Virus record (IMG/VR): IMGVR_UViG_3300030419_005314
Coordinates: 1 to 39,642 of that record
Reading direction: 5' to 3' (one strand)
Length of the DNA: 39,642 nt
Origin: a virus
Shown in pieces: positions 16,625 to 39,110 of the stretch (positions are counted from its first letter, which is position 1; every line of letters begins with the position of its first letter). Position numbers and translations under genes: made by a program. The notes below the pieces were generated by a model. It saw only the letters and a list, made by a program, of their open reading frames with translations, was not told the origin of the DNA and did no database searches.

Positions 16625-16998
16625 TGTTTCTCCCAATATTCTTTTTCCCATGGATAAACTATCCACTTATCCTTTTTTTGAAGTACCCATTTATCAGGTA
16701 CAAATTGTGATTGTTCATGATAATGTATAGTAGCTATATACACATCATCTAATTTACTCAAACTATTTAATGTCTGTCCTGTATCTGCAATGTCATCAAC
16801 TACCAATAAAGGTCTTACTCTTGGTTCATCAAAAAGTTTCAATCCTAACTTATGTGATAAAATAACTGCGGGAACTAATCCACCTCGTGGACTTCCCCAT
16901 ATTCCTCTAAATTCTATACCAGAATCTATAACCCATTTAGCTATCTCATCACACGCGTCTACTACTTCAGCGTAATGTATTAATTCATATTTACTCAT
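16621..16998 (-). CDS. Purine phosphoribosyltransferase (xanthine-guanine PRT-like)
   Basis: 125 residues. The PRPP-binding loop is clear at about residues 65-77 (LLVVDDIADTGQT), and an upstream RGIWGSPRGGLVPAVIL stretch (31-47) matches the type I fold. Gpt-like enzymes use PRPP to turn guanine or xanthine into nucleotides. Residues around YPWE near the C-terminus are also Gpt-like. It overlaps QueC by 8 bases and the HD gene by 4. It probably serves purine salvage in the same module that consumes GTP for preQ0. The preQ0 operon context leaves open a role with deazapurine bases, which is speculation. Confidence 0.85.
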   Translation of the reverse strand: MSKYELIHYAEVVDACDEIAKWVIDSGIEFRGIWGSPRGGLVPAVILSHKLGLKLFDEPRVRPLLVVDDIADTGQTLNSLSKLDDVYIATIHYHEQSQFVPDKWVLQKKDKWIVYPWEKEYWEKQ

Positions 16999-17788
16999 TA
17001 ATATAACTCTCTAAAACTTTTTCCACATGATTACGAGCAACTTCCCATTCAACTTTACCTGAGTCATCTGCATATTGGACGGGATCTTTTCTTCCTAACT
17101 TAATGAAGGCTTCTATTCTCTCTACAGAAGAAGCTGACTTATAATCAGAATAACCTTCTTGTGTAGGTTTGTAGGAAGTATTAGTTCTCTTATAAACTTC
17201 ATCAAAATCTATACCTAAAGTTTCACAACATTCCTCACCGTCTTGTAATATTCCAAACTTATCCGTATCCAAATATGGTGTAGAAACTGAAACTCTTTCT
17301 GAATCCCAATTACCAATTTGGAAGGCTTCGAAATCAGCATTTCTAAACTCTGGACGACAATCAGGATATATCTCATGGTCACCTGCGTGAATACCCATAG
17401 CTATAGTTACATCTGTATCCTTTGTATTTGCTATTGAAAGTGCTACTGCTTGAATAACTGAATTCATCATTTTATTTCTATTCGGTACTACGGTGTCTTT
17501 CATATTTTCTTGTTCATAATGACCTTCAGGTACATCATCTCCACCTTGTACTAAATTAGAATTTAACAATCCTTGTAATCCATCAAATTTAATAACATGA
17601 TGTTTTACACTTTGTTCTTTATCGTGTAAGTAACTTACAAGTTCTGATGCTCGTTCTAATTCTACATTATGTTTTTGTCCATAATCAAAACTGACCGCTG
17701 TTACTTCATAATCATTGGCCAATAAATGAATTAGTACGGTTGAACTATCCATACCCCCACTTAAAGATAATACTGCTTGTTTTTTCAT
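16991..17788 (-). CDS. queC: 7-cyano-7-deazaguanine (preQ0) synthase QueC-like, zinc site lost
   Basis: 265 residues. QueC turns 7-carboxy-7-deazaguanine into preQ0 using ATP and ammonia. The ATP PP-loop SGGMDSST is at residues 10-17, the conserved SFDYGQKH at 33-40 and VPNRN at 101-105. In QueC a C-terminal zinc site has four Cys, in a pattern ...CY...C-x2-C-x2-C-VERIEAF. Here the surrounding sequence is well conserved (SYKP, SVERIEAFIKLGRKDP), but the four positions hold Ser205, Asp215, Ser218 and Ser221. The structural zinc should therefore be absent, or the fold is stabilised otherwise. Ribosome binding site AAGGAA before ATG. The gene is in the preQ0 operon, so it is probably functional. 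Strong family call; the function of the variant is inferred. Confidence 0.87.
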   Translation of the reverse strand: MKKQAVLSLSGGMDSSTVLIHLLANDYEVTAVSFDYGQKHNVELERASELVSYLHDKEQSVKHHVIKFDGLQGLLNSNLVQGGDDVPEGHYEQENMKDTVVPNRNKMMNSVIQAVALSIANTKDTDVTIAMGIHAGDHEIYPDCRPEFRNADFEAFQIGNWDSERVSVSTPYLDTDKFGILQDGEECCETLGIDFDEVYKRTNTSYKPTQEGYSDYKSASSVERIEAFIKLGRKDPVQYADDSGKVEWEVARNHVEKVLESYINE

Positions 17789-17802
17789 TTTTTATCTTTC
17801 CT

Positions 17803-18984
17803 TTAAAAAAATTTATTAATTACTTTTTTTTCTTCTTTATTTGGATTACTTAATTTCAAGTATAATGGTTGATATTTGTTATAAGTCTGTATTGGATTTT
17901 CAGATTTAACCAATTCATCTACAGACTTTAACAAGTTATTAATGTCTGGTGTTGTAATCTGTTCAATTAAATCACTATGACTATTTGCTATCTCTTTTAT
18001 TCTACGAATACAATCAAGTAATACGTACATATTATGTAATGACATTCCTGAAAAAGCACCTCTTGTCCATTCAAAAATATCTTTATATGTTAAAACTTTT
18101 TGTACATAATCATCAAATGGTGTTACATATGGAAGCGGTAAATCATTATTGAATATATCTTCACGTTTAGGTAAATTTATACTTTCAATACTCATTCGTC
18201 TTAAAGAAAATCCCATATAATATCCACCAAAAACAACCGCGTAATCTGGAGAAGAACTATCAGTAGTAACTTGTACATTACTACCAACTTCTTTTAATGA
18301 TTTTTGTAACTGTTCTAAAATCAAAAAATCAGATATCTTAGCTGTTCCTAATATGTGTAACCATTTATTATGTGGTTGTAAATGTTCTTTACCTTCCAAC
18401 AAAATAGCTATAGCATACATCATACTACTAATTTTACTTCCTTGAACACCACCTATTGACCAACCATCAAACTTAAATTCTTTTACAACATCATACCATT
18501 CTTGAGTTCTACTATCAAATCCCGCTTGTAAAACATTTAATATTTCTGTACCTTCTTTATCCCTATTTTCCACATAATATCTAAAATTTTCTGCACTTAA
18601 ATCTAAACACTCATCATAATCCTTAAAAACTTTTCCTCCAGGTGGTATATCAAGATTCATAAAAACATTAGTATTATTTTCAGACCATCGTAATATAGTT
18701 TCTCTCAATTCTGGTTTCCAAACTAAATTACCAGTTTTAATTTGAAACCCTCCTGAATCTCCAAGTACAATAACATCCTCTGGAATCCCAAATGATTTAC
18801 GTGACTCTTTATCTCTAAAATTAGCACCTGCTGATAATAAAAAATACTTATATCTAAATTGTTCTGGAAACTCCTTACCATAAAATCTGGTAGGAAGTTC
18901 ACCTTTAATCTTAAATCCTTTTTTTAATTCTTGTGCAATACCTGCAGAAGAAAAACTTGGATACCAAATAAAACCTTTATCCAT
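17803..18984 (-). CDS. dpdA: DpdA-type DNA guanine transglycosylase (TGT-like)
   Basis: 393 residues. The TGT-family signature DSGGFQ lies at residues 76-81, with LDIP (111-114) and TDSSSPDYAV (241-250) carrying an Asp that fits the nucleophile region. The motif WSIGGV (175-180) matches the TGT substrate loop. A family C-x-C-x2-C zinc motif was not found, as in several phage DpdA proteins. DpdA exchanges guanine in DNA for preQ0 or a related base. This is supported by adjacent queC, folE, queE and queD and by the lack of any tRNA-modification partner (QueA, QueF, QueG were not seen here). It overlaps the DUF6884 gene at one base. A tRNA-type TGT would be the alternative. Confidence in DNA-type is moderate to high. 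Confidence 0.82.
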   Translation of the reverse strand: MDKGFIWYPSFSSAGIAQELKKGFKIKGELPTRFYGKEFPEQFRYKYFLLSAGANFRDKESRKSFGIPEDVIVLGDSGGFQIKTGNLVWKPELRETILRWSENNTNVFMNLDIPPGGKVFKDYDECLDLSAENFRYYVENRDKEGTEILNVLQAGFDSRTQEWYDVVKEFKFDGWSIGGVQGSKISSMMYAIAILLEGKEHLQPHNKWLHILGTAKISDFLILEQLQKSLKEVGSNVQVTTDSSSPDYAVVFGGYYMGFSLRRMSIESINLPKREDIFNNDLPLPYVTPFDDYVQKVLTYKDIFEWTRGAFSGMSLHNMYVLLDCIRRIKEIANSHSDLIEQITTPDINNLLKSVDELVKSENPIQTYNKYQPLYLKLSNPNKEEKKVINKFF

Positions 18985-19409
18985 TAAAAAAACCCATGTT
19001 CAATTTTTGTATTCTCCTTAAAAAATTTTAACTGTTGTCCTATACCCAATCCTTCTAATGGAATGTGAAAAGTATTTTTCAATAAGGGTAATAGAAATTC
19101 TCTGTAATTTTGTCCAACATAAAAATATAAAGTATCACTTTCATCAATGCGTGGTCTTACTTGTTCATATACTTTATCTGACCATTCTATTCTTTGACTC
19201 TTACTAAAGTCATTTAAGGTCATATCATAATCTTCTATCATATCTTCCAAATCTAATAATCCATATTTAGCTGATAATATGTAAACTTTATCATGTGTAT
19301 TCAAACAATACTTTAAAGATTTCTTAAAGAAATCAGAAATATATAAATCTTTAGCTTTATATTTTCCTTTTCTTTTATCTTTAACACACGAAATAAAACT
19401 TACATTCAT
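18984..19409 (-). CDS. DUF6884-like protein of the deazaguanine operon
   Basis: 141 residues. The N-terminus carries SFISCVKDKRKG followed by AKDLYIS, then VYILSAKYGLLDLED and Y-D-M-T-L, the pattern of the DUF6884 family (related in appearance to YaaA-like proteins). The conserved Cys8 and the SAKYGL element are present. The gene overlaps folE by 4 bases (ATGA) and dpdA by one, so it is made with the transglycosylase. Its function is not established to my knowledge; a role in tailoring the inserted base or assisting DpdA is inference from position. No membrane segment or other motif is visible. Confidence 0.72.
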   Translation of the reverse strand: MNVSFISCVKDKRKGKYKAKDLYISDFFKKSLKYCLNTHDKVYILSAKYGLLDLEDMIEDYDMTLNDFSKSQRIEWSDKVYEQVRPRIDESDTLYFYVGQNYREFLLPLLKNTFHIPLEGLGIGQQLKFFKENTKIEHGFF

Positions 19410-20035
19410 AATGTTTTAATAAAATTATAAAATTCATGTCTTGCTTGATTTTTGTCATCTCTAAATACACCACTAAGTTTAGCAGTTTTCATAATAGAAT
19501 TATGTTTAACTCCTCGTATACAAGTACATAAATGTTCTGCCGATACAACCACTGCTACTCCCATACTATCTTCACAAGCTTCATCAATATGGTCGTGTAT
19601 TTGCATTGTTAAATTTTCTTGTACTTGTGGTCTATGTGCATAAAACTCTACTATACGATTTAACTTACTGAGTCCGATTACTTTACCATCTGGAGTTGGT
19701 ATGTACGCCACATGAGCTACTCCAGTAAAAGGTAAGTGGTGGTGTGAACATAATGAATGTAATGTAATATTACCTTCAAATACCATTCCATCATAACCAT
19801 CAACATTATCAAAAGCTGTAATCTTTGGTGGTTCACTATAGACACCTTTTGCCAAATCATTTACAAATGCTTTAGCTACTCTCATTGGTGTATCGGCTGA
19901 ATTTGGATCATTCAACCAATCAAAACCAAGAGCTGTCATATAACGACCATAATGGTCAGCCGCTTCTCTAATCATATTTAATTTTTCATGTTCAGTTAAA
20001 GGTTTGTTTCCATTAGCATATTTTAACTTACTCAT
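19406..20035 (-). CDS. folE: GTP cyclohydrolase I
   Basis: 209 residues, normal length. Zinc ligands are seen as Cys96 and His99 in SLCSHHHLPF, with a third in EHLCTCIRGVKH (about Cys170). The GTP-binding and catalytic core GLSKLNRIVEFYAHRPQVQE (121-140) is intact. The enzyme turns GTP into 7,8-dihydroneopterin triphosphate, the precursor for QueD. The gene follows queE with no gap and overlaps DUF6884 by 4 bases. A phage-encoded FolE is usually present to feed 7-deazaguanine synthesis when the host supply is limiting. Confidence 0.94.
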   Translation of the reverse strand: MSKLKYANGNKPLTEHEKLNMIREAADHYGRYMTALGFDWLNDPNSADTPMRVAKAFVNDLAKGVYSEPPKITAFDNVDGYDGMVFEGNITLHSLCSHHHLPFTGVAHVAYIPTPDGKVIGLSKLNRIVEFYAHRPQVQENLTMQIHDHIDEACEDSMGVAVVVSAEHLCTCIRGVKHNSIMKTAKLSGVFRDDKNQARHEFYNFIKTL

Positions 20036-20782
20036 TTATACTCCTCGTTTATCTCCATAGGCTATAATATGTAACCTATCTGTAAAATTGTAACCTTGTT
20101 CAGTACACAAATCCATTAACCATCTTCGTCTTTCATTTAATTCTTCTTCAACTAATCCTTCGGGCATCAACCATACTTTATGATTTGGTATACTTAATTC
20201 TTTTTGTAATTCTTTCACTTCTTCTAAATCTTTTTCACTTGATATAACTGGTTTTAATTGATAATCTGGATGTAAATCAAGTAACATTTTCATTGCCTCA
20301 TAGTTACAACGCCACTTCTCGTGTTTCTCTTTATCTTTTTCTGTAACTTCTCTATTAAGATACGGCATCCAAGTTCCAGGTCTTGGTGTTGAGTTTGATA
20401 ACTTTGGTGAAAGTGAAATCATATCAGCTTGAGTACTTACATACTCACTACCTTCTGTTTCTATCGTAACATAATGATGATGTATTTTAGCCAAATTACA
20501 CAAATCATTTAACAACTCTTTATGTAAAGTTGGGCCTCCCCCTGTAATCATAGTATATCTAATATGTGAATTATCTCTATAGAATTGGTCAATATCATCA
20601 TAAGTAAACTTACCTTTTTCTGGAGCCCATGAACTATATGGTGTATCACAAAAAGAATTACTAAATTGACATCTTAATTTACAACCTGTCATTCTTATTA
20701 AAATGTGAGGTACTCCCATAAGTTTACCTTCACCTTGTAAACAAGAATATATTTCATTTACAGGAATAATTCTATCGGACAT
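20036..20782 (-). CDS. queE: 7-carboxy-7-deazaguanine synthase, radical SAM, variant cluster motif
   Basis: 248 residues from the ATG at 20780-20782. An earlier in-frame start would add 26 residues that lie inside queD and do not match QueE. The enzyme converts 6-carboxytetrahydropterin to 7-carboxy-7-deazaguanine. The Fe-S cysteines are Cys34, Cys38 and Cys45 in GCKLRCQFSNSFCDT, a CX3CX6C spacing rather than the usual CX3CX2C. The SAM-binding element is TGGGP (80-84), where many enzymes have GGEP. The start NEIYSCLQGEGK (9-20) is typical QueE. Both changes may be normal in a phage subfamily. It overlaps queD by 11 bases and directly precedes folE. Confidence 0.88.
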   Translation of the reverse strand: MSDRIIPVNEIYSCLQGEGKLMGVPHILIRMTGCKLRCQFSNSFCDTPYSSWAPEKGKFTYDDIDQFYRDNSHIRYTMITGGGPTLHKELLNDLCNLAKIHHHYVTIETEGSEYVSTQADMISLSPKLSNSTPRPGTWMPYLNREVTEKDKEKHEKWRCNYEAMKMLLDLHPDYQLKPVISSEKDLEEVKELQKELSIPNHKVWLMPEGLVEEELNERRRWLMDLCTEQGYNFTDRLHIIAYGDKRGV

Positions 20783-21209
20783 ATTCCGCCATATTATCTT
20801 CGTGTTCCCAACATTGTACTTTAGAAATAGAAACTCTACCTTCTGTTTCTTTATCAACAATATCTTGTAAATACAAAGCGACTAATTCAGCGAACCTTTC
20901 ACAACCTACACCATTTTCCAAAACTCTTAAATCTATTATATTACGTTTATCTAATTCCTTAAACATTTCAAGTTCTGGATCGTCAGCTGCTATACAAGTT
21001 GTATGGTCAAACATATGTTTCAACCATTCTTTAACACCATTACGTTTGAAACATCCAAAATCAATTACCCAACCTTTATCATCAAGTTCACCTTCAAACC
21101 ACACTTTAAAACAAAGTGCATATCCATGAATCAAATTACAATGTGAATCAGCTTTCCATTGTCTAAAAGCTGTACTATATCCAATGAATCGTTTATAACT
21201 TCTGTGCAT
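20772..21209 (-). CDS. queD: 6-carboxy-5,6,7,8-tetrahydropterin synthase QueD-like
   Basis: 145 residues. The fold-typical stretches are visible: YSTAFRQW near the start, HCNLIHGY (23-30) with the catalytic Cys24, VIDFG, then DHTTC, GVGCERFAE and CWEHEDNMAEY at the C-terminus. In classic QueD the metal-binding motif is C-x3-HGH; here it is C-x3-HGY, so one His is replaced, and the first His (usually in FxAAH) is Trp. I recall a FRQW/HGYA subgroup in other bacteria, so this may be normal. It opens the deazaguanine operon, just downstream of the promoter at 21241-21269, and overlaps queE. The reaction is DHNTP to CPH4. Confidence 0.87.
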   Translation of the reverse strand: MHRSYKRFIGYSTAFRQWKADSHCNLIHGYALCFKVWFEGELDDKGWVIDFGCFKRNGVKEWLKHMFDHTTCIAADDPELEMFKELDKRNIIDLRVLENGVGCERFAELVALYLQDIVDKETEGRVSISKVQCWEHEDNMAEYVR

Positions 21210-21775: not shown

Positions 21776-21830
21776 ATTTAGTTTACCCTTTAATATAAAT
21801 ATTTATTTACTTCTTAAAAATACATTTTTT

Positions 21831-22269
21831 TGTGGAGCTGGGGGGATTCGAACCCCCGTCCAGTCTGCATTCTTCAATGAGTCATTCACAACTTAGTCAG
21901 GTTTTATTATTATAGTAGTTCATTATTTACCTGCAAAACCACTAACAACTTTACTCAGAGTTATCAACTGGTAGTTTCTTTAATCTCTAACTTCTATCCT
22001 AACTAAAGAGAGTTCGTCTAACTTATTTTATGACCGAGTGTTAGACAACTCAGTAACTTATGCAGCGTATGCGTAAGTTGGTTGGGAATCAGAAACAGAT
22101 TCTTCAACATAGTTGTCGAATCCCATTTCAGCACCAGCTAAATGCCAGTCAATTACCAACCCGTCTAGCGAATTATCGCCATTTAGGTTTTGTTGAGTCT
22201 TATTTAAGAGTTTACTCATACTCTGTTGCACTCTATTGTCAAATAACACCTGTCGATTCCAGTCAGCCC
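21831..22269 (-). ncRNA. ssrA: tmRNA (ssrA), unusually long
   Basis: The 5' end GGGGCTGACTGGAATCGACA (from 22269) and the 3' end CAGCTCCACA (to 21831) pair as acceptor stem (GGGGCTG with CAGCTCC), identical to E. coli tmRNA. The T arm is GGGGG-TTCGAAT-CCCCC. No CCA is encoded (ACA follows). The tag frame ends QPTYAYAA-stop at about nucleotide 213, in the open frame that starts before the RNA. If the resume codon is GGC at about nucleotide 91, the tag is 40 residues, longer than the usual 8-35. Total length is about 439. The RNA starts 5 bases after the stop of a 45-residue gene, with no promoter of its own. A trans-translation RNA in a phage is known but uncommon. Confidence 0.92.
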
Positions 22270-22274
22270 CATAT

Positions 22275-26332: not shown

Positions 26333-26396
26333 ATTTATACTATAATATAACATAAAAAACGCATATGGCACAAGCTTTTTCTGCAATTATTTGCAA
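26333..26396 (-). promoter_or_regulatory. Repeated promoter cassette, copy 1
   Basis: On the minus strand the cassette reads AAAAAGCTTGTGCC-ATATGCG-T-tract. TTGTGC (plus 26368-26373) and TTATAT (plus 26345-26350) are separated by 17 bases, a sigma70-like arrangement. Further down lies TATAAATA (plus 26333-26340), equal to a T4 late -10. Upstream is TTTGCAAATAATTGCA, a partial palindrome. Copies 2 and 3 at 36382-36420 and 38749-38802 share the core with one or few changes. This copy overlaps the last 20 codons of denV. Confidence 0.75.
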
Positions 26397-26795
26397 ATAA
26401 TTTGTTTTCCTATACCAATGAGGTTTCATATCAATCTTCTCTTGAATTCGTTTTCTGATAATCTTATAGTCTTCTATTCGTGGTGTCCAATCATTCCATA
26501 ACTCATTAGGCCATTGTTCTCGTTTAAATACTCTTGTATCATCAGGATTCATTCCACGAGCCTTCATTTCTTTTCGTAAGTCATCATATCGTTTAGATAA
26601 GTACTTTCCTTTATCATAAAAAAACTTAACATGACCTTTATTTAAAGTGTATTGTTTTGGAATACTTTTAATATCCCAAGATTTAGATTTTAAACTTCTT
26701 TGTAAAGAAGAACCTACCATAAATATCTCACGATATTCCGCAATTAAATGTTGATCTGTTAATTCAGATGGATCAATTATATTAATTCTTGTCAA
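26340..26795 (-). CDS. denV: Pyrimidine dimer DNA glycosylase / endonuclease V
   Basis: 151 residues from a TTG start (26795-26793) with GGAG upstream. The N-terminus MTRIN...SELTDQHLIAEYRE aligns with T4 endonuclease V; catalytic residues Thr2 (N-terminal after Met removal) and Glu23 are at the same positions. The later GHVKFFYDKGKYL and KPHWYRK also match T4 (GHVTFFYDK, RPTWYK). The enzyme removes UV-induced cyclobutane dimers and nicks the strand. The T4 protein is 138 residues; here the last ~18 codons after Asn-Tyr are read from the repeat cassette at 26355-26396, giving an odd Cys/Val-rich tail. Confidence 0.93.
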   Translation of the reverse strand: MTRINIIDPSELTDQHLIAEYREIFMVGSSLQRSLKSKSWDIKSIPKQYTLNKGHVKFFYDKGKYLSKRYDDLRKEMKARGMNPDDTRVFKREQWPNELWNDWTPRIEDYKIIRKRIQEKIDMKPHWYRKTNYLQIIAEKACAICVFYVIL

Positions 26796-27362: not shown

Positions 27363-27686
27363 TTAAATCGAAAAAGAAATTCCACAACCACAATCACGTG
27401 CAGCCTGTGGATTGTTAAATATAAAACCACCATTCAATAAGTCATCATTAAAATCTATCTCAGTACCAGTTACATATATATAAGAATTAAATGGTACGAT
27501 CAATTTAAATTCATCTAAATCAAATACTTTATCATCTGGAACTATTTCTCTATCTGTATATTTAAATGAATAACTTAATCCACTACAACCACCACCCAAT
27601 ACAGATAACTCAACATTAGGTTTATCTTCTGTTAATAAAGCTATTAATCTACTTTTAGCTTTTTCTGTTACTGTTACGTGTTCCAT
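27363..27686 (-). CDS. A-type Fe-S carrier (IscA/ErpA/HesB family)
   Basis: 107 residues. The three Cys are Cys34 (GGGCSGL), Cys99 and Cys101 (CGCG) at the C-terminus, as in the IscA/ErpA/HesB family. These proteins bind and deliver 2Fe-2S or 4Fe-4S clusters. Phage HesB-like genes are known cargo in cyanophages. It follows the TonB-dependent receptor gene after a hairpin (27702-27727). QueE also needs an Fe-S cluster, so helping its maturation is a possible but unproven reason. Confidence 0.93.
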   Translation of the reverse strand: MEHVTVTEKAKSRLIALLTEDKPNVELSVLGGGCSGLSYSFKYTDREIVPDDKVFDLDEFKLIVPFNSYIYVTGTEIDFNDDLLNGGFIFNNPQAARDCGCGISFSI

Positions 27687-27701: not shown

Positions 27702-27727
27702 TAGGGGGTTAGTTTCCCAACCCCCTA
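27702..27727. terminator. Strong GC hairpin after the TonB-dependent receptor gene
   Basis: TAGGGGGTT (27702-27710) and AACCCCCTA (27719-27727) form a nine-pair stem with an eight-base loop. It lies 14 bases downstream of the receptor stop and about 15 bases upstream of the Fe-S carrier ATG. No U-tract follows on either strand, so it may be a weak terminator or an mRNA-stabilising or processing hairpin rather than a classic intrinsic terminator. Shortly after it, TATAAT precedes the Fe-S carrier start. Confidence 0.7.
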
Positions 27728-27740
27728 ATGTCTATACTTT

Positions 27741-30560
27741 TTAGAAGTACACACTAATACCAGCGTTAAAGTATCTTGGGGTTCCAAGAAATACTTCTGC
27801 GTTGTGAGCTGCGTGAACTTTATCCCCGTAGCTATTGTATTGACTATGATCTACTGCATCTTGTACGAATACTGCATCTAATGCATTAAATACGTGAACA
27901 AAAGCTTGTACGTTGTATTCACCCATAGAAGGTAAATCATATGTAGCATGAAGATCCAAAGCAGAGTATCCTGGTGCCATCCACACTTGTTCTCTATCAG
28001 CATCTTCATCTGAACCATCATATTCACGAGCGTTTGGACTCCAATCAGAATAGTTCTTATCATACATCTTATACAAACCTGATAATTTAAGACCTTTTAT
28101 TGGTGTTAAAGTAGCACCTAAGATATAAGCTGTCTGTGGTTGATCACCTACAAATAATCCATCAAGTGCATAATCATAAGGTGTAGTTGTCTGACCAATT
28201 ACTTGACCTTCATCATTATACTCATCTTCTTGATAATTACCACTCGCATCACCTGCGAATTTCCAAGTTCCAAGACTTAATGTTGCATCTACTTTCAACA
28301 TTGGATGAATTTGAGACGACGCCTCAATTTCAAGTCCTTGGTGTTTCTGATCTATACCACTCAAGAATATTACATCAGTATCACCACTTGAACCTTGTCC
28401 ACTTGTTACAGATTTAGTAAGGTTTCTATCTTTCCAATCTGTGTTATAAACATTCGCTTTAACTGCGAAGTTTTCTGATTGAAAATTTACACCAGCTTCT
28501 GTACTAATGAATTTTTCATTAGCAGGATCTGATGCAACTGTACCATCATAGTAGATTACATTATCCATAATTGGTGGTTTCTCAACATATCCAACGTTAC
28601 CAAAAAGACTAACATTATCATCTATGTCATAGTATGCTCCACCTTTGAACTGAGAAGTAATAATCGCGTCAGATTTAATTACTTCGTTAGCTACTGTAAA
28701 ATGGTCTTGGTAAGAATATTTTATACTCGTTAATCCACCCATACCAAATAAGTTTAACTTATCTTTAGTGTAATTACCTTGTACAAATCCACCAATCCAA
28801 TCAACAGTTGTTGAGTTATGATAAGCAATTATATCACCTAATTCAACTCTTTTACCATCTGCATAATTGTCATCAGCATAATCCATATAATAATCACCAC
28901 CCATCAAATCACGAACTTCACGTGCGTGTTCGATTCCAGCAGTTCTCCAATCGATACCAAATTGTAATTCTAATTCATCACTAACGTCATAGTTAAGTTT
29001 TGAAATTACACCATAAGTATTTTGACGATTGATTGAATTACGTAGAATACCAACTGATTGATTATTACCTTCACCGTGTGTTCTTACTAGAGCTCTCTTA
29101 TCTACATATACTGTATCAGAGTCTCCTGAATTCATAGCAATAAGTGCGTTCCAATCACGTGTCCAAGGACTACGACCATAATAGAATTTATAGTCATCAT
29201 CACCTAAATTACCATCAGCATCTAATGTCGGTATCTTACCGTATGTTCCAGTTCCGCCACCTGAACCACCACTCCAATACGCGACTGTACTTAATCTCAT
29301 TTCTTCATTAATTTTCCAGAAATGATTTAAGTTTACTAATGGTTTATGAAAAAAGTTTTCACGTTCATTCAAAAAATTAGGATTGTATCTATCTACTGTT
29401 CTTGCACCATACATATACCAATATTGTTTACCAGTATATGATGGATCTACTGGTGACCAATTCTGATTAAAGAATCTACCAACATCTTTGAACTTACCAT
29501 CTTCACCTAGTGCAGTTTCATCATATCCTTCTATACTTGCTGCGAAATCAGCATCGTATGCACCAATGTTTTGTTTGTAGAGATTCTGTCCATGACGTTG
29601 TGGAGCTCCGATTGCATACAACTCAAAACGATGTTCATCGTTCATTTGAAAAGAACTACCAAAATAGTAAGCCCATGCATCTGTCCATGCTTTATCAATT
29701 ACACCGTCACCTGTTTTTCTTACAATAGTAGTACTAAATGCCATCTTGTCATTTATAAGACCAGTATTATAATTAACAGTAGATTTTAGAAAGTTACCTG
29801 CACCTACTTCTTGTTTAACCTTACCACCCTTTTCATAGGAAGCTGGGTCTGTTATGATATTCATAGTTCCACCAATGGAAGGGGCAGCTAAATTAACGGC
29901 TGATAGACCTCTTTGCATCTGAATTGATTGAGCTGCATCTGCAACTCCATCCCAATTAGACCAATAGACCCATCCGTTCTCCATATCATTTTGGGGAACA
30001 CCATTTATCATTACTGCCACATTTCGTTGATTAAACCCACGAACATTGATACGAGCGTCACCCGCACCACCACCTTGTTGTGTTGCGTAAACACTTGGTG
30101 TAGTATTCAAAGCCATTGGAATATCTTGTGAACCAAGACGAAATTCCATTTCTTCTTTTCCTACATTAGTGTAAGCAACGGGTGTTTTTTCATCAGCACG
30201 AGAAGCTAAAACTTCCAATGCAGATAACTCAACTGCGGAAACCGCTAAACTAAAGTCGAGTTTAACATCATCACTAACATCAACAGATTTAGTGGATGAT
30301 TGATATCCGATAACAGAAGCTGTAATTGTATAAGAACCCTTGTCAACTGTAATAGAATAAGCACCGACTTCCGAAGAAGAAGTACCTAACTCAGTTCCTT
30401 CTACAATTATATTAGCTCCAATTAAAGGATTACCTGACTCATCAGCGACTACACCACTTACAATCGCAGATAGTTTTTCTTCTGTTACAACTTCTTGTCC
30501 TAAAAGAAATATAGGCATAAGTATAGTTGCCACTAATGAGAATAGATTACGTTTATTCAT
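27741..30560 (-). CDS. TonB-dependent outer-membrane receptor with carboxypeptidase-regulatory-like domain
   Basis: 939 residues, full length. A signal peptide (residues 1-21) is followed by a CarboxypepD_reg-like domain (about 31-110: VSGVVADESGNPLIGANIIVEGT), a possible TonB box (LEVLASRADE), a plug domain (about 128-235: INVRGFNQRNVAVMINGVP, then SIGGTMNIIT) and a beta-barrel ending in a terminal Phe. No SusD or TonB partner is nearby. The base composition is 40% GC or more, against 20-33% in neighbours, with richer use of C- and G-ending codons, pointing to capture from a host. Leader GAGGAGACG gives a strong ribosome binding site. The substrate is unknown: iron chelates, B12 or other nutrients are possible. 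Confidence 0.95.
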   Translation of the reverse strand: MNKRNLFSLVATILMPIFLLGQEVVTEEKLSAIVSGVVADESGNPLIGANIIVEGTELGTSSSEVGAYSITVDKGSYTITASVIGYQSSTKSVDVSDDVKLDFSLAVSAVELSALEVLASRADEKTPVAYTNVGKEEMEFRLGSQDIPMALNTTPSVYATQQGGGAGDARINVRGFNQRNVAVMINGVPQNDMENGWVYWSNWDGVADAAQSIQMQRGLSAVNLAAPSIGGTMNIITDPASYEKGGKVKQEVGAGNFLKSTVNYNTGLINDKMAFSTTIVRKTGDGVIDKAWTDAWAYYFGSSFQMNDEHRFELYAIGAPQRHGQNLYKQNIGAYDADFAASIEGYDETALGEDGKFKDVGRFFNQNWSPVDPSYTGKQYWYMYGARTVDRYNPNFLNERENFFHKPLVNLNHFWKINEEMRLSTVAYWSGGSGGGTGTYGKIPTLDADGNLGDDDYKFYYGRSPWTRDWNALIAMNSGDSDTVYVDKRALVRTHGEGNNQSVGILRNSINRQNTYGVISKLNYDVSDELELQFGIDWRTAGIEHAREVRDLMGGDYYMDYADDNYADGKRVELGDIIAYHNSTTVDWIGGFVQGNYTKDKLNLFGMGGLTSIKYSYQDHFTVANEVIKSDAIITSQFKGGAYYDIDDNVSLFGNVGYVEKPPIMDNVIYYDGTVASDPANEKFISTEAGVNFQSENFAVKANVYNTDWKDRNLTKSVTSGQGSSGDTDVIFLSGIDQKHQGLEIEASSQIHPMLKVDATLSLGTWKFAGDASGNYQEDEYNDEGQVIGQTTTPYDYALDGLFVGDQPQTAYILGATLTPIKGLKLSGLYKMYDKNYSDWSPNAREYDGSDEDADREQVWMAPGYSALDLHATYDLPSMGEYNVQAFVHVFNALDAVFVQDAVDHSQYNSYGDKVHAAHNAEVFLGTPRYFNAGISVYF

Positions 30561-30591
30561 AAAACGTCTCCTCGTTTTTGTTTATTATTAA

Positions 30592-30642: not shown

Positions 30643-31509
30643 TTATTTACCAGGTCTTGCACCACGTGGTAACTCACCTGATATTTGATCTGAATCTTTT
30701 TTAATAGGTTCTTCAATTTTTTTTTCTTTTTCTTTTCTTGAAAAAACATTCCTCCTAATGTAAATATCTTTAGGTTTTTCCAAAACTACATTTTTTTTAC
30801 CATCCCTATTTTTTTCTTCAAGTATTTTATTATATGCTAAGACTAAACTTACAGCCATAGGGTCAAATACAAAGATAAGAATAAAGATAAAAAACTTAAC
30901 TACGGTATCTATATCTGTTCCAAATACTCTTGCAAGATAAATAGCAGGACCTACATCAACTCCAGTTTCAACAAGAGATGTTTTTAAATCACCTATATCT
31001 TGTTTAATATTTAAAATTTTATCATTTATTGCTAATACTTTTGGATTATATTCTTCACGAAGTTTTCTTTTTGCTGTAGGGTAATTGTCCGGTAAGGATG
31101 ATAGTGATTGTTCTAATTCATCTTTAAGATATACTTTATCTTCTTCTAATTGTTTTAATCTATCTTCTTTATAAAGTAATACTGTAGTTTGTTTTTCAAA
31201 TTCAATTGTTGCACCTTGATATGCATTAGATAAAAAACCGAATATACCAGCACTCGTTATAAATACAAGTGTAACAACACCAATAGTCATATAATATTTT
31301 AACCAACTATTTATCTTAGTCCAGTATCTATATAGGAAAGATGCTGATACAAGTTTTGCAAATTCTAAACTACCAGCCATTACAACTACAGCAAAAGTAG
31401 CTCCTGCAAATAATTTAGATAATCCAAATACTGAATAATATGCTGCACTTCCAGCAACTAGTAGAGCTGACAGTCCTACCGTATACTGAAAAATATTTTT
31501 TTGTTTCAT
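30643..31509 (-). CDS. Membrane protein with four predicted helices and central coiled coil
   Basis: 288 residues. Hydrophobic helices are seen near residues 9-26, 30-52, 72-93 and 205-225 (FFIFILIFVFDPMAVSLVLAY), with a Leu/Glu/Lys-rich coiled coil between about 105 and 180. The C-terminus is basic with many Lys/Glu and ends RGARPGK. I recall similar proteins in large marine phages, function unknown. No enzyme motif. It starts 6 bases after the next gene's stop and is upstream of the TonB-dependent receptor leader. Confidence 0.7.
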   Translation of the reverse strand: MKQKNIFQYTVGLSALLVAGSAAYYSVFGLSKLFAGATFAVVVMAGSLEFAKLVSASFLYRYWTKINSWLKYYMTIGVVTLVFITSAGIFGFLSNAYQGATIEFEKQTTVLLYKEDRLKQLEEDKVYLKDELEQSLSSLPDNYPTAKRKLREEYNPKVLAINDKILNIKQDIGDLKTSLVETGVDVGPAIYLARVFGTDIDTVVKFFIFILIFVFDPMAVSLVLAYNKILEEKNRDGKKNVVLEKPKDIYIRRNVFSRKEKEKKIEEPIKKDSDQISGELPRGARPGK

Positions 31510-34781: not shown

Positions 34782-35178
34782 TATAACTCCTATTTATTTG
34801 TTCATTCATAAATTTTAATTTTTTTGTATCATTAGTTCGATAGTATTTTGTTTTAATTGCGTGACAATCGGCACATAAGGTTTGTAAGTTTTTACGATTA
34901 TTATTATTATGATTTTCATCTACATGGTCAACTTGACATTGATATTTATAATCAATAATTGTAGTTGTACATTTAAAACCTAAACGACTATCAATATTTT
35001 CACAATAATCTTTCCTATATATTTTATAATCCCAACCATTTAAACCGTATTCAATACTATGATGCATATTACATTTCGCCCTACGAATTATAGAACCGTC
35101 TTTACGATAGTTACCGGTGTGTTGTCCCAGGTCATTACAACCTGAGACTTCACATATTCTTTCAGTAACTTTAGGCAT
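34765..35178 (-). CDS. HNH endonuclease
   Basis: 137 residues. Cys pairs C9/C14 and others early on, then the HNH core: QVDHVDENHNNN, then NLQTLCADCHAIKTK (DH...N...CxxCHxxK). Zinc-binding Cys in the core are present (C-x2-C). Free-standing HNH nucleases in T4-like phages are often homing endonucleases, mobile and inserted between genes. Here it lies between the MoxR gene and the hairpin-separated operon. It overlaps the MoxR end by 8 bases (stop at 35171), which argues for integration into the operon. DNA-packaging roles are also known for some HNH proteins. Confidence 0.88.
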   Translation of the reverse strand: MPKVTERICEVSGCNDLGQHTGNYRKDGSIIRRAKCNMHHSIEYGLNGWDYKIYRKDYCENIDSRLGFKCTTTIIDYKYQCQVDHVDENHNNNNRKNLQTLCADCHAIKTKYYRTNDTKKLKFMNEQINRSYNVIKD

Positions 35179-36334
35179 TTACGTTATTCGCCTCAATTTC
35201 TTCTTCATTAAACAAGTCATCAGAAGAACCATCACCTATATACTTCTGTACTAACTGTTTAATATAAGTTCTTTCACTATCTACACCACCGTCATCAGCG
35301 TACTGTGGATAAACAGTAACTTCTGCAGCCTCATCAAGTCCAAAACCGTCAAACAATAACCCAGCTAACTCTACAGAAGTTCTTGTTGAAATACCAGAAG
35401 AAATCTTACCAGCATCAGACTTAGATTCCATCCGAGTTAAATGAGATATTTCTGCAACAGATTTTAATAACTCACTATCTACGTGAGGAAACATATAAGT
35501 CAACAGACCGTGTTCCTCAGTATCAGTTAAAACATCCATCTCAACAACAATGAATCTGTCCATAAGAGCTTTATCCATAACTCTTGTAGAAGTATATTCA
35601 TTACCAATGTTAGCTGTGGCTACGAAAGTAACACCTTCAGCTACATTAACAGTTTCACTACTGTCAGCCTCATCTAACCTAAGATACCTTTGACCACTAT
35701 CTAAAACTGTCATAAGAATATTCCACGCATCTGGATGAGCTCTTGATAACTCATCTAACAAGATAACTGCGTTTGGAGTTCTGATCGCTTTTACAAAAAG
35801 TGATTCAGAAAAGTAAGTACCCTTTGATTTATCAAAATGAGTATTACCAATTAAAGTTGAACGAGGATCCTGAGTAGCTCCTAAATTAAAGTAGAAGTCA
35901 GGTCTATCTAACGCATTTACTAATGACTTAGCTGCCATTGTTTTACCACACCCAGCAGGACCAGTCATTAAAATATTTTTACCACGAACAGCAGAACGAA
36001 CTAGATACTTCCACTTCAATTCTTTCATAACTAAACCTTTAGGTTTCATACTATAAGAATTATGAATAAAATTCAAAACTTCAGTATGATCTGAAGGAAC
36101 ATCAATAGATACTTCATTATTTACAGGTATCCCTGTACTTTCAAAAACTTCCATCGGAACTTTCCACCAGTAAGTTCTCCCACTCTTACCAGTTCTAAGT
36201 TCTAAAGCCATACCTTTTTTATAGGCTTTCTTACGAGTACTAGTGCTTATTTTTGATGTATATTTATTACCATCAAAATCGAAAGCATTATATCGGTTTC
36301 CCGATTTTTTTATTTTTACAACAACATTATTCAT
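35171..36334 (-). CDS. MoxR/CobS-like AAA+ ATPase
   Basis: 387 residues. An N-terminal basic domain (1-110) with RTYWWKVP precedes the AAA+ core: Walker A GPAGCGKT (125-132), Walker B ILLDE (191-195) and a sensor ATANIG element around 245-250. A C-terminal helical part ends acidic. MoxR/CobS ATPases work with VWA-domain proteins, and the next gene upstream (36607-38727) encodes one. In marine cyanophages a CobS-like gene is well known. The pair probably remodels or inserts metal into, or activates, some complex during infection; the target is unknown. Preceded by a repeat promoter at 36382-36420 and a GGAAAAATAAC leader. Confidence 0.88.
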   Translation of the reverse strand: MNNVVVKIKKSGNRYNAFDFDGNKYTSKISTSTRKKAYKKGMALELRTGKSGRTYWWKVPMEVFESTGIPVNNEVSIDVPSDHTEVLNFIHNSYSMKPKGLVMKELKWKYLVRSAVRGKNILMTGPAGCGKTMAAKSLVNALDRPDFYFNLGATQDPRSTLIGNTHFDKSKGTYFSESLFVKAIRTPNAVILLDELSRAHPDAWNILMTVLDSGQRYLRLDEADSSETVNVAEGVTFVATANIGNEYTSTRVMDKALMDRFIVVEMDVLTDTEEHGLLTYMFPHVDSELLKSVAEISHLTRMESKSDAGKISSGISTRTSVELAGLLFDGFGLDEAAEVTVYPQYADDGGVDSERTYIKQLVQKYIGDGSSDDLFNEEEIEANNVNA

Positions 36335-36381
36335 TTGTTATTTTTCCTTTTTTATTAATATTTTTATTAAATCTCATATAC

Positions 36382-36420
36382 AAAGGTACGAATAAAAACG
36401 CATATGGCACAAGCTTTTTT
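36382..36420 (-). promoter_or_regulatory. Repeated promoter cassette, copy 2
   Basis: Same core as copy 1: A-tract, AGCTTGTGCC, ATATGCG, T-tract, then ATTCGTACCTTTG. TTGTGC (plus 36407-36412) could be the -35; 17-18 bases downstream lies GTACCT or TACCTT, a weak sigma70 -10. TGTG-N19-TACCTTTG also fits the Bacteroidetes -33/-7 pattern. The MoxR gene starts about 48 bases downstream. The copy lies just after the stop of the small Cys-rich gene. Confidence 0.72.
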
Positions 36421-36421
36421 T

Positions 36422-36565
36422 TCACTTTTTTGCAGATTTTTTAAACCAGTGTAAAGTACCATTATAACTCTCATATACCTCATAACCACATTTTTTAACC
36501 CAAATACATTCCCAACTAAACTCATCATCTCTAAGATAAGTTTGCCTCATTTTATATCCACACAT
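36422..36565 (-). CDS. Small Cys-rich (zinc-ribbon-like) protein, start uncertain
   Basis: A frame to a TGA at 36422 with ATG at 36563-36565 gives 47 residues: MCGYKMRQTYLRDDEF, then WECIWVKKCGYEVYES, a Trp and a Lys tail. An upstream Cys (PEC before MCG) completes a CxC...C...C pattern that could bind zinc. The frame continues upstream to a TC-ATA overlap with the VWA stop, with a GGAG site 5 bases before the ATA, so translation may begin at that ATA or a nearby codon (about 61 residues). This is a reading of the sequence; not recognised. Confidence 0.55.
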   Translation of the reverse strand: MCGYKMRQTYLRDDEFSWECIWVKKCGYEVYESYNGTLHWFKKSAKK

Positions 36566-36606
36566 ACATTCAGGATTATTTTTATACAATATGTTAATTA
36601 GAAATT

Positions 36607-38727
36607 TTATGATTTCTCCAAGAATTTTTTATTCATTGTTTTTGTAATTGACAGTACTGAAGTTACATCAACGAACTCTGAATCTTTCCCGTACATCCTT
36701 TTAAAATCTTTAATAGTAGATTCGTGATCCCAATCATTTTCACTACCAATATAATAACTAAGAACTTTGATACCTTTTTCTTTAATAGTATTTACCATCT
36801 TTTTAGTGTGATTAATTGCGTCATTATGATAATACTCTATATCTTTATTATGAAACATTGGCATCCCATCACTAAAGTTTAAAAAGTAAGAATCTTTATC
36901 TTCAGTAGTAGGAACAATTTCATTCATAATAGCTTCATAACATAATCCCTCAGGTGTAGTACCACTAACTTTAATGTGAGCAAATAAATTCTTTACTTTC
37001 AAAAACTTATCAACACGTGAATCATACGCAATTAAGATAAGAGGTTTATCACCAGAATTTCTACCATGACCTCCAGTATTATGAGTACTTCTGATTGAAA
37101 CTACTACATCAACATTCTGAATCATTGAGGTTGCTTTACAAATTGCAACAACTGAAGTCATTGTCTTATCCCATTTATCTCCACCCATCGAACCACTAGC
37201 GTCAATTGAAATATGTAAGAAAGCGTCTGAATAAGATTCTATAAAAGAAGTATTGAAAACTCTTTCATTACCAAAACCTAATTCACTAATTAATCTTTTA
37301 TCAATCTTTCCACTATCTAATCTTGTCCATTTAGTTTCACGAGACTCTCCTCTAACTTGAAGTTTTCTACCTAAGATAGTTCCAAGTCTAATACCTTCTT
37401 CTACAAAACCTGTTTGTTTATCACTATTATGATCATAATAATATCTTGAATATTTATAAGGTGATAAAATATTTAATCCTGTTTCATAATTTCCACTTGA
37501 CTCAATTAACTCTTTAGTAAGTTTTTTAACTACTAAACACTTAACACCTTTTTTATTATAACTAACATCTTTACCAACTTCTTCATAAGTCATACCTGAT
37601 GCTTCGATAGTTTTTAATTCTCTTGAATTACTCTTAGTTAATTTACCAGTTTTCTTTACATTACCATTAACAAAATCTTTCTGTTTTGTAATAGCTTTAT
37701 CAAGTTGTATCTTTTGATGAGGAGTTAACTCAACTGATTTACTATTACCAGTAACACCACTAGTTTCATCATTTTCTGTTGAATTTAGTAAATCGTTAAA
37801 TTCTTCATCAGTTAATTTATCAGAGTCATCAGAAGAATCACTACCATCACCTTTTTCATAAGTAACTTCACCTGTTTCATCATCAACTTTTTCAATACCA
37901 TCAGGAATGTTATTAAGTATTGTATCGTAAATTTGAAGAGCAATCCCAAACGCAGCACCTGTAGATTCCATACTTTTGACAGTACCAAAGATAAGTTTTC
38001 TAATTTCTCTCAAACCCGGAAGAACATCTAAATTAGTATTTTTATTAGTAAGATTAATTATTCTAAAGATATATGAATCCCAATCTTTAGAAGTATACTC
38101 TGTTGATTTAAGTGCCTTATCAATTACTTTAGAATGAAAATACTTATCATACATTGAATGATAATATCCCTTATAACCTGGTGAAGTAGTGAAAATAAAA
38201 TGATCAATACGTCTATCTTCAACATAGTTTAATAAATTTTTAATATGAGTTAAAATTTCACTTTTTGAAAATCCTTTGACTTCCGCTCTATTATAATATT
38301 CTTTAGGGATATTCATTTCAAGATTTTTTAGAAAATCAAAATCAGAAAGTTTAATATGAGATCCTTCGTGAAGAGCTAATCCAACAGAACTATCAAATAA
38401 CTTATCATCTAACTTAGCACCAATAGTAACAGTTTTACCATCAGTATAAGAATCATCTCTACTAGTAAAGTTAACTTTAATTGAAGAGTCACCTGTTACG
38501 ATACTAACGAAATTACTAACAGCTCTACGATATCCAGCTAGAGCTACTAAATCAACTTTAGGTTTTCTATTAACTTCTACTTCATCATCAAAGATAGAAC
38601 TAGTAGTATCCCAACCATCGTCTAACCAAAAAGAACTATAGTTATTTTTCTTATTGAGATTCTTAACACTATATTTCTCTCTAAGTGCCATTGGATTAAA
38701 ATGTTTAAAGTTTTTCAAATCTTTCAT
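36607..38727 (-). CDS. VWA-domain protein with HExxH metallopeptidase-like motif (MoxR partner)
   Basis: 706 residues. An N-terminal domain has GLALHEGSHIKLSDF (HExxH at 120-124) and Glu170/Asp171 in YVEDRRID as possible third metal ligand. An acidic, Asp/Ser-rich linker lies at about 285-330. The C-terminal VWA domain has the MIDAS DASGS (509-513), a Thr in SGTTPEG and Asp in FSDGMP. This composition equals metallopeptidase/VWA proteins paired with MoxR-type ATPases, or CobT-like proteins in cobalt chelatases. The MoxR gene is just downstream. In phages the pair occurs in marine T4-like phages; the target is unknown. Promoter cassette copy 3 precedes it. Confidence 0.82.
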   Translation of the reverse strand: MKDLKNFKHFNPMALREKYSVKNLNKKNNYSSFWLDDGWDTTSSIFDDEVEVNRKPKVDLVALAGYRRAVSNFVSIVTGDSSIKVNFTSRDDSYTDGKTVTIGAKLDDKLFDSSVGLALHEGSHIKLSDFDFLKNLEMNIPKEYYNRAEVKGFSKSEILTHIKNLLNYVEDRRIDHFIFTTSPGYKGYYHSMYDKYFHSKVIDKALKSTEYTSKDWDSYIFRIINLTNKNTNLDVLPGLREIRKLIFGTVKSMESTGAAFGIALQIYDTILNNIPDGIEKVDDETGEVTYEKGDGSDSSDDSDKLTDEEFNDLLNSTENDETSGVTGNSKSVELTPHQKIQLDKAITKQKDFVNGNVKKTGKLTKSNSRELKTIEASGMTYEEVGKDVSYNKKGVKCLVVKKLTKELIESSGNYETGLNILSPYKYSRYYYDHNSDKQTGFVEEGIRLGTILGRKLQVRGESRETKWTRLDSGKIDKRLISELGFGNERVFNTSFIESYSDAFLHISIDASGSMGGDKWDKTMTSVVAICKATSMIQNVDVVVSIRSTHNTGGHGRNSGDKPLILIAYDSRVDKFLKVKNLFAHIKVSGTTPEGLCYEAIMNEIVPTTEDKDSYFLNFSDGMPMFHNKDIEYYHNDAINHTKKMVNTIKEKGIKVLSYYIGSENDWDHESTIKDFKRMYGKDSEFVDVTSVLSITKTMNKKFLEKS

Positions 38728-38748
38728 TTATTACTCCTTTTCACATCT

Positions 38749-38802
38749 AAAGGTACGAATAAAAACGCATACGGCACAAGCTTTTTCTGCAATTAATTGC
38801 AA
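38749..38802 (-). promoter_or_regulatory. Repeated promoter cassette, copy 3
   Basis: The core AAAAAGCTTGTGCC-GTATGCG-T-tract-ATTCGTACCTTTA on the minus strand differs from copy 2 at few positions. Upstream (plus 38788-38801) lies TGCAATTAATTGCA, a perfect 14-base palindrome that could be an operator. The VWA gene ATG is about 22 bases downstream with an AGGAG ribosome binding site. Confidence 0.74.
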
Positions 38803-38873
38803 TATTTTTTTAGTTGTTTGATATTTATCTACGATTGATTGAGTAAGTAGAAAGGGAATAATATAAAGGGTAT

Positions 38874-39110
38874 TCAATTTAATTTAGGTTTTATGTCAAA
38901 TTCATCTAATATCTTAAAAGTAAGTATCCATTTCATATTATCATCTTCATCCCATTCTTCATAATCAGATAAATAACAAGTATCATTAACCATTTTATCC
39001 ATTACTGATTGAACTTGTTCTTCTTTGTTACATATAATATAAATGAAATTTCCACTTGTTCTTACCATAACTTCATTAGTCGGTCTATTATAAATTATAT
39101 TTTCTCTCAT
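38874..39110 (-). CDS. 78-residue acidic phage protein
   Basis: Not recognised. A short beta-rich N-terminus (MVRTSGNFIYIICNKEEQV) is followed by an acidic stretch (LSDYEEWDEDDNMKW) and a C-terminal strand and Lys tail. No membrane segment. It is the last gene before the VWA promoter cassette and follows the 104-residue membrane gene by one base. It may be an inhibitor-like or protein-binding small protein, which is speculation. Confidence 0.55.
   Translation of the reverse strand: MRENIIYNRPTNEVMVRTSGNFIYIICNKEEQVQSVMDKMVNDTCYLSDYEEWDEDDNMKWILTFKILDEFDIKPKLN

Follow-up and report, generated by a model that had tools for sequence, protein, structure and literature searches.

A TonB-dependent receptor gene, probably derived from Marinimicrobia, in the replication cluster of T4-like marine phages

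Phage auxiliary metabolic genes encode mostly enzymes or periplasmic proteins; those for photosynthesis and phosphate uptake in cyanophages are host-derived and are kept under selection in T4-like phages. Phage products can also alter the outer membrane of the host, as does porin Lc of the temperate phage PA-2, a general porin that replaces OmpC. A SusC-type TonB-dependent receptor was reported in the marine megaphage Mar_Mega_1 and in LR745206, with the proposal that it increases the uptake of nutrients by infected cells (PMC9723777). The genome concerned is 635 kb in size, and neither lineage-wide conservation of the receptor nor a fixed gene neighbourhood was reported there. PMC9723777 was the only earlier report of phage TonB receptors found in the open-access literature, and no paper on a SAR406-phage receptor of this type was found in the same literature (subscription papers were outside the scope). 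The DNA analysed in this work, referred to as the window, is the 39,642-nucleotide stretch of virus record IMGVR_UViG_3300030419_005314. It resembles Mar_Mega_1 and LR745206 in being phage DNA that encodes a TonB-dependent receptor. An initial sequence-only reading of the window had stated that no established phage system of this type was known; this was nearly right, the receptor of Mar_Mega_1 being the exception.

The receptor gene is an intact open reading frame of 939 codons occupying exactly positions 27741..30560 on the minus strand, the strand on which the other features of the window given below with positions are also located. The protein starts with a signal-peptide-like sequence, read by inspection of the translation (aa 1-22, MNKRNLFSLVATILMPIFLLGQ; 30495..30560), which is followed by a CarboxypepD_reg-like domain (aa 34-113; 30222..30461; Pfam PF13715, CarbopepD_reg_2, E 1.4e-17), a putative TonB box LEVLASRA (aa 115-122; 30195..30218) and a plug domain (aa 124-232; 29865..30191; Pfam PF07715, E 8.5e-15, 55.6 bits against a cut-off of 23.9). 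The TonB box was assigned from its position and sequence, and its residues E116, A119, S120 and R121 are invariant in an alignment (A1) of 63 phage, host and outgroup sequences. The C-terminal part of about 700 residues (aa 245-939; 27744..29828) is predicted to form a large beta-barrel, and its last residue is Phe, a typical end of outer-membrane proteins. The Pfam barrel model did not match the receptor, although the plug and CarboxypepD_reg-like models did. An AF2 model of the protein (mean pLDDT 70) aligned over aa 112-939 with solved TonB-dependent transporters with Z scores up to 29; in this model the plug is poorly modelled, and the barrel is presumably 22-stranded. Taken together, the receptor is complete from its apparent signal peptide to the predicted barrel, as had been proposed from the sequence.

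The start codon is preceded at a distance of 7 nt by a Shine-Dalgarno-like GAGGAG (30568..30573), and a strong terminator-like hairpin with an 11-bp stem lies directly 3' of the gene (27702..27727). The upstream neighbour encodes a 288-aa membrane protein belonging to no Pfam family (30643..31509), and on the other side lies a gene for an A-type Fe-S carrier (27363..27686; Pfam PF01521). The window also encodes a baseplate wedge protein. T4-type late promoter sequences (TATAAATA) were found in the window only slightly above chance.

Classification of the window receptor as a SusC/RagA glycan importer is not supported: it scored 58.9 bits with model TIGR04056, far under the cut-off of 368, and no SusD was found in the 19 phage records searched. 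Nor was a TonB domain, or the cassette in which some related phages carry one (see below), found in the window, and the sequence-only observation that SusD and TonB neighbours are lacking thus stands. The LR745206 copy matches the window receptor only over aa 107-286, the plug region, with 31% identity, and a PHROG without assigned function likewise has its match in the plug. Chromosomal receptors of Marinimicrobia are 65-75% identical to it over nearly the full length and have the same domain order.

Several other features of the window were recorded. A phage-borne tmRNA at 21830-22270 was recognized by Rfam model RF00023 (94 bits, full model length) and missed by ARAGORN; an open reading frame covering the same stretch has matches in several relatives. 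Positions 16991-21209 contain QueC (Pfam), a TGT-like gene (weak Pfam match) and folE-, queE- and queD-like reading frames named from their sequence, which probably represent a 7-deazaguanine DNA modification cassette. Short reading frames at 26340-26795, 36367-36528 and 38731-38877 terminate in peptides that resemble each other (..EKACAICVF.., ..EKACAVCVF..), which points to a probable intergenic element present in several copies. At 35171-38727 a MoxR/CobS-type AAA ATPase is followed by a VWA/CobT-type-looking partner of 706 aa, for which no Pfam match was obtained, an arrangement also seen in cyanophages.

Scanning IMG/VR with the receptor protein yielded 304 places, and the best 80 of the 304 (65-95% identity), which come from 69 metagenomes, were fetched. 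In 64 of these 80 loci the receptor is inside a T4-type replication cluster with the order gp32-like protein, UvsX, exonuclease, helicase, B12-dependent ribonucleotide reductase (RNR), receptor, DNA polymerase B, clamp and clamp loader. The gene directly upstream of the receptor encodes the adenosylcobalamin-dependent RNR in 63 of 81 viral loci (median gap 72 bases), and the 288-aa membrane protein in 11 of 81, which make up the family of the window. The two arrangements are linked by three loci (L036, L055 and L057), where the RNR and the receptor are followed by window-type genes. No RNR was seen in the contigs of the window's own family, which are fragments. Each of 19 receptor-bearing phage records has exactly one plug domain. 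Genes for gp23-type major capsid proteins were found in three records, one of them a 131.8-kb contig that also carries the RNR and the receptor. No match to the receptor was found in cultured distant relatives such as Microcystis phage Mel-JY01 (polymerase 46% identical) and the Flavobacterium Immutovirus phages. The baseplate gene of the window and the fact that its gene neighbours recur in further contigs of viruses show that the receptor gene, besides being intact, is truly viral, in agreement with its initial placement in a phage genome.

A second scan, seeded with the RNR alone, gave 80 loci, eight of which end too early to be decided. The receptor adjoins the RNR in 62 of the 72 decidable loci, i.e. 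related phages do not consistently lack it; the remaining ten (about 14% of the close relatives) run from the RNR to the polymerase without a receptor. In three of these ten (L175, L177 and L178) the slot is filled by glutamine synthetase, and in some phages it contains both glutamine synthetase and the receptor. The interval between the RNR and the polymerase thus holds cargo genes, the receptor being the usual occupant. The phage glutamine synthetase (Pfam Gln-synt_N and Gln-synt_C; cluster 26) was seen in loci with or without the receptor (L010, L018, L043, L170 and L175). Two contigs (L095 and L130) that had been assigned to MAGs of Flavobacteriales and Euryarchaeota bear the phage replication cluster and are misbinned phage DNA.

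The closest cellular relatives of the receptor all belong to Ca. Marinimicrobia / Neomarinimicrobiota (Fidelibacterota, SAR406), with identities up to 75%. In the phylogeny, from which the short contig L103 was left out, the viral receptors form one clade (SH-aLRT 100) nested among the receptors of Fidelibacterota, a topology consistent with a single old acquisition by phages. L103, which belongs to a Marinimicrobia MAG, is 4.3 kb long and contains a receptor followed by the beginning of another one. Its receptor is a firm member of the viral clade (trees that exclude it were rejected with p-AU 0.005), so that L103 either is viral itself or may reflect a return of the gene from phage to host. 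The host ortholog was found in 18 of 18 tested genomes, usually in single copy, and at a strict cut-off in 94 of 244 genomes of the phylum, again mostly single. It is located next to housekeeping genes (dnaG, cvpA, lon, SRAP or U32 peptidase genes), whereas the phage copy is in or beside the replication cluster. On account of the receptor phylogeny, that is, of this one gene, the hosts of the phages are likely to be Marinimicrobia. When the phage polymerase was compared with 245 genomes of the phylum, no close match was obtained, only three distant ones at 34-36%.

The base composition of the gene had been described as host-like, with 60-base samples of about 43% GC. This could not be maintained. 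The GC content of the receptor gene is 36.5%, compared to a mean of 31.2 ± 2.7% for the other genes of the window, but the excess is confined to codon positions 1 and 2 and thus reflects the amino acid make-up; at the third position the values are 19.7% for the receptor and 17.5 ± 3.9% for the phage, as expected of a gene long resident in phage. Only 17% of the 60-base stretches reach 43% GC (range 22-52%).

The dN/dS values among pairs of viral receptors (0.06-0.18) indicate that the receptor is under strong purifying selection, and the viral copies are reading frames of full length. The plug is the slowest-evolving region in phage and host copies alike (divergence 0.089 and 0.084, respectively), its divergence being 0.09 as compared to 0.28 overall, and the TonB-box-like segment LEVLASRA is nearly fixed. 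Relative to the mean of the whole protein, the extracellular loops, as assigned from the AF2 model (mean pLDDT 70), evolve 1.06 times as fast in phage copies and 1.22 times as fast in host copies. At a threshold of 85%, no alignment column separates phage from host receptors. Conservation of the plug, the TonB-box-like segment and the loops as in the hosts is what one would expect if the phage copy performed the same TonB-powered transport.

Taking into account that the gene is phage-borne, of cellular origin according to the tree, kept by selection according to dN/dS and recurrent, it has the properties of an auxiliary metabolic gene. We hold with moderate confidence that a lineage of T4-like marine phages, whose hosts are probably Marinimicrobia, has acquired and fixed it as an auxiliary gene of host origin, which would keep a TonB-powered importer running. 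The infected cell would make extra copies of the transporter from the phage gene; the protein would be exported, inserted into the outer membrane and powered by TonB/ExbBD of the host, and would import whatever the single-copy ortholog of the host imports. Import might in this way be kept up during phage DNA synthesis, when expression of host genes would be shut down and the demand for dNTPs and protein precursors would be high. Since these viruses carry a complete and conserved transporter beside their replication genes, they probably change what the infected cell imports, and the role in host nutrient uptake initially suggested for this phage-borne outer-membrane receptor is plausible. Host-derived phage metabolic genes are a known kind; as far as we found, what is new is an outer-membrane TonB-dependent transporter that occurs lineage-wide and is fixed in the replication cluster. 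It differs from the other auxiliary metabolic genes in encoding an integral outer-membrane, TonB-energised transporter and not an enzyme or a periplasmic protein. With porin Lc it has in common that a phage product would alter the outer membrane of the host, but the phages considered in this work are of the T4 type, and their receptor retains its plug and putative TonB box.

Some of the phages encode, in addition to the receptor, a small protein with a TonB C-terminal domain. The protein is 107-125 aa long, has a signal-peptide-like start and was detected in five of 19 receptor-bearing records, many of which are fragments, with scores of 37-46 bits for the domain (Pfam cut-off 24.6). A scan yielded 40 viral contigs of this kind. 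In the loci with such proteins (L239-L243, L244-L282) the gene is often preceded by two envelope-targeted reading frames, and in several contigs (L202, L204, L274, L275 and L279) it precedes gp32, with the same orientation, in the cluster that ends with the RNR and the receptor. It is a minority feature, present in two of 30 decidable gp32-upstream regions. The protein has neither the length nor the proline-rich linker of normal TonB, and by itself it would therefore not be able to span the periplasm. In E. coli periplasmic TonB fragments inhibit TonB-dependent transport, and a soluble TonB C-terminal domain could likewise inhibit rather than support TonB-dependent import. It is conceivable, though rather unlikely, that by means of their own receptor and, in several members, the anchorless TonB domain, the phages reprogramme the TonB-dependent transport of the host in such a manner that some imports are kept open and others, including the entry of rival phages, are blocked.

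TonB-dependent receptors such as FhuA and BtuB are classic phage receptors, and it had been suggested that the phage copy replaces or masks the receptor used by competing phages. A phage-made receptor, or a TonB-dependent system disturbed by it, could shield the cell from rivals that use TonB receptors. The structural matches of the receptor include FhuA-pb5 and FhuA-Llp, and the secreted TonB domain would fit such a role, but that domain was seen only in the minority of records mentioned above. Moreover, in a mask or altered receptor one would expect the loops to differ or the TonB box to have degenerated, whereas loop conservation is higher among the phage copies than among those of the hosts, no feature sets the two groups of receptors apart, and the putative TonB box and plug, needless for a decoy, have been kept. 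Finally, the location among replication genes makes expression in the early or middle phase more likely than in the late one and speaks against exclusion or manipulation of this kind. For these reasons masking is not favoured, and superinfection exclusion in general appears unlikely; a strict decoy function, or one of dosage, as a phage receptor would still be compatible with the sequences.

Because the adjacent RNR is adenosylcobalamin-dependent, cobalamin was considered as the substrate, the receptor being in this case a vitamin B12 importer that supplies the RNR. The direct upstream neighbour in most relatives is indeed an RTPR according to TIGR02505 (357 bits, cut-off 340) with the Pfam domain RNR-II_ins_dom, and as none of 120 genomes of the Marinimicrobia phylum contained an RTPR-type match above the cut-off, the phage brings its own RNR. 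BtuB ranks with the best of the solved structures that resemble the receptor model (Z 27.8), but Fiu and FyuA score as high, and with Fiu, FyuA, BtuB and PiuA all at Z 27-29 the comparison does not discriminate between substrates; the housekeeping neighbours of the host gene were equally uninformative. The slot next to the RNR also takes glutamine synthetase, so the adjacency is in part a cargo-slot effect. Cobalamin riboswitches, one each in 22 of 27 Marinimicrobia genomes, are located, where examined, in front of another TonB-dependent receptor gene; of the partial reading frames behind them, four match the phage receptor at 21-23% identity, and all five that were scanned with Pfam carry a plug. 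Riboswitch control or linkage to B12 genes, by which a BtuB would be recognized, was not seen for the host ortholog: no riboswitch was found near ten such genes. The riboswitch evidence weakens B12 import as the main reading, and we regard it as improbable. Supply of iron to the neighbouring Fe-S protein, also proposed from the sequence, was rejected because the linkage is not conserved: in the closest relatives (L001 and L002) the receptor is present, but the interval from there to the HAD gene contains no Fe-S gene.

The possibility that the locus is a chimeric assembly or host DNA miscalled viral is negligible: contigs such as L095 and L130 have been misfiled, but no misfiling was found for the window, its join recurs in 11 viral loci and the RNR-receptor-polymerase order in more than 60, so that a chimera is excluded by identical joins in numerous assemblies made independently of each other, the 131.8-kb contig combines capsid gene and receptor, and the receptors of viruses group in a clade of their own and resemble the phage in third-position GC.

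The preferred reading of the receptor as a host-derived auxiliary gene implies that a T4-like ocean virus lineage has kept an energised transporter of 939 aa by its replication genes since one apparent acquisition. It would link infection by these viruses with the uptake of nutrients in SAR406, a marine phylum that is abundant but uncultured, and the receptor gives these viruses a probable host and a marker gene. The TonB domain encoded by some members makes the idea that phages may rewire TonB-dependent transport directly testable.
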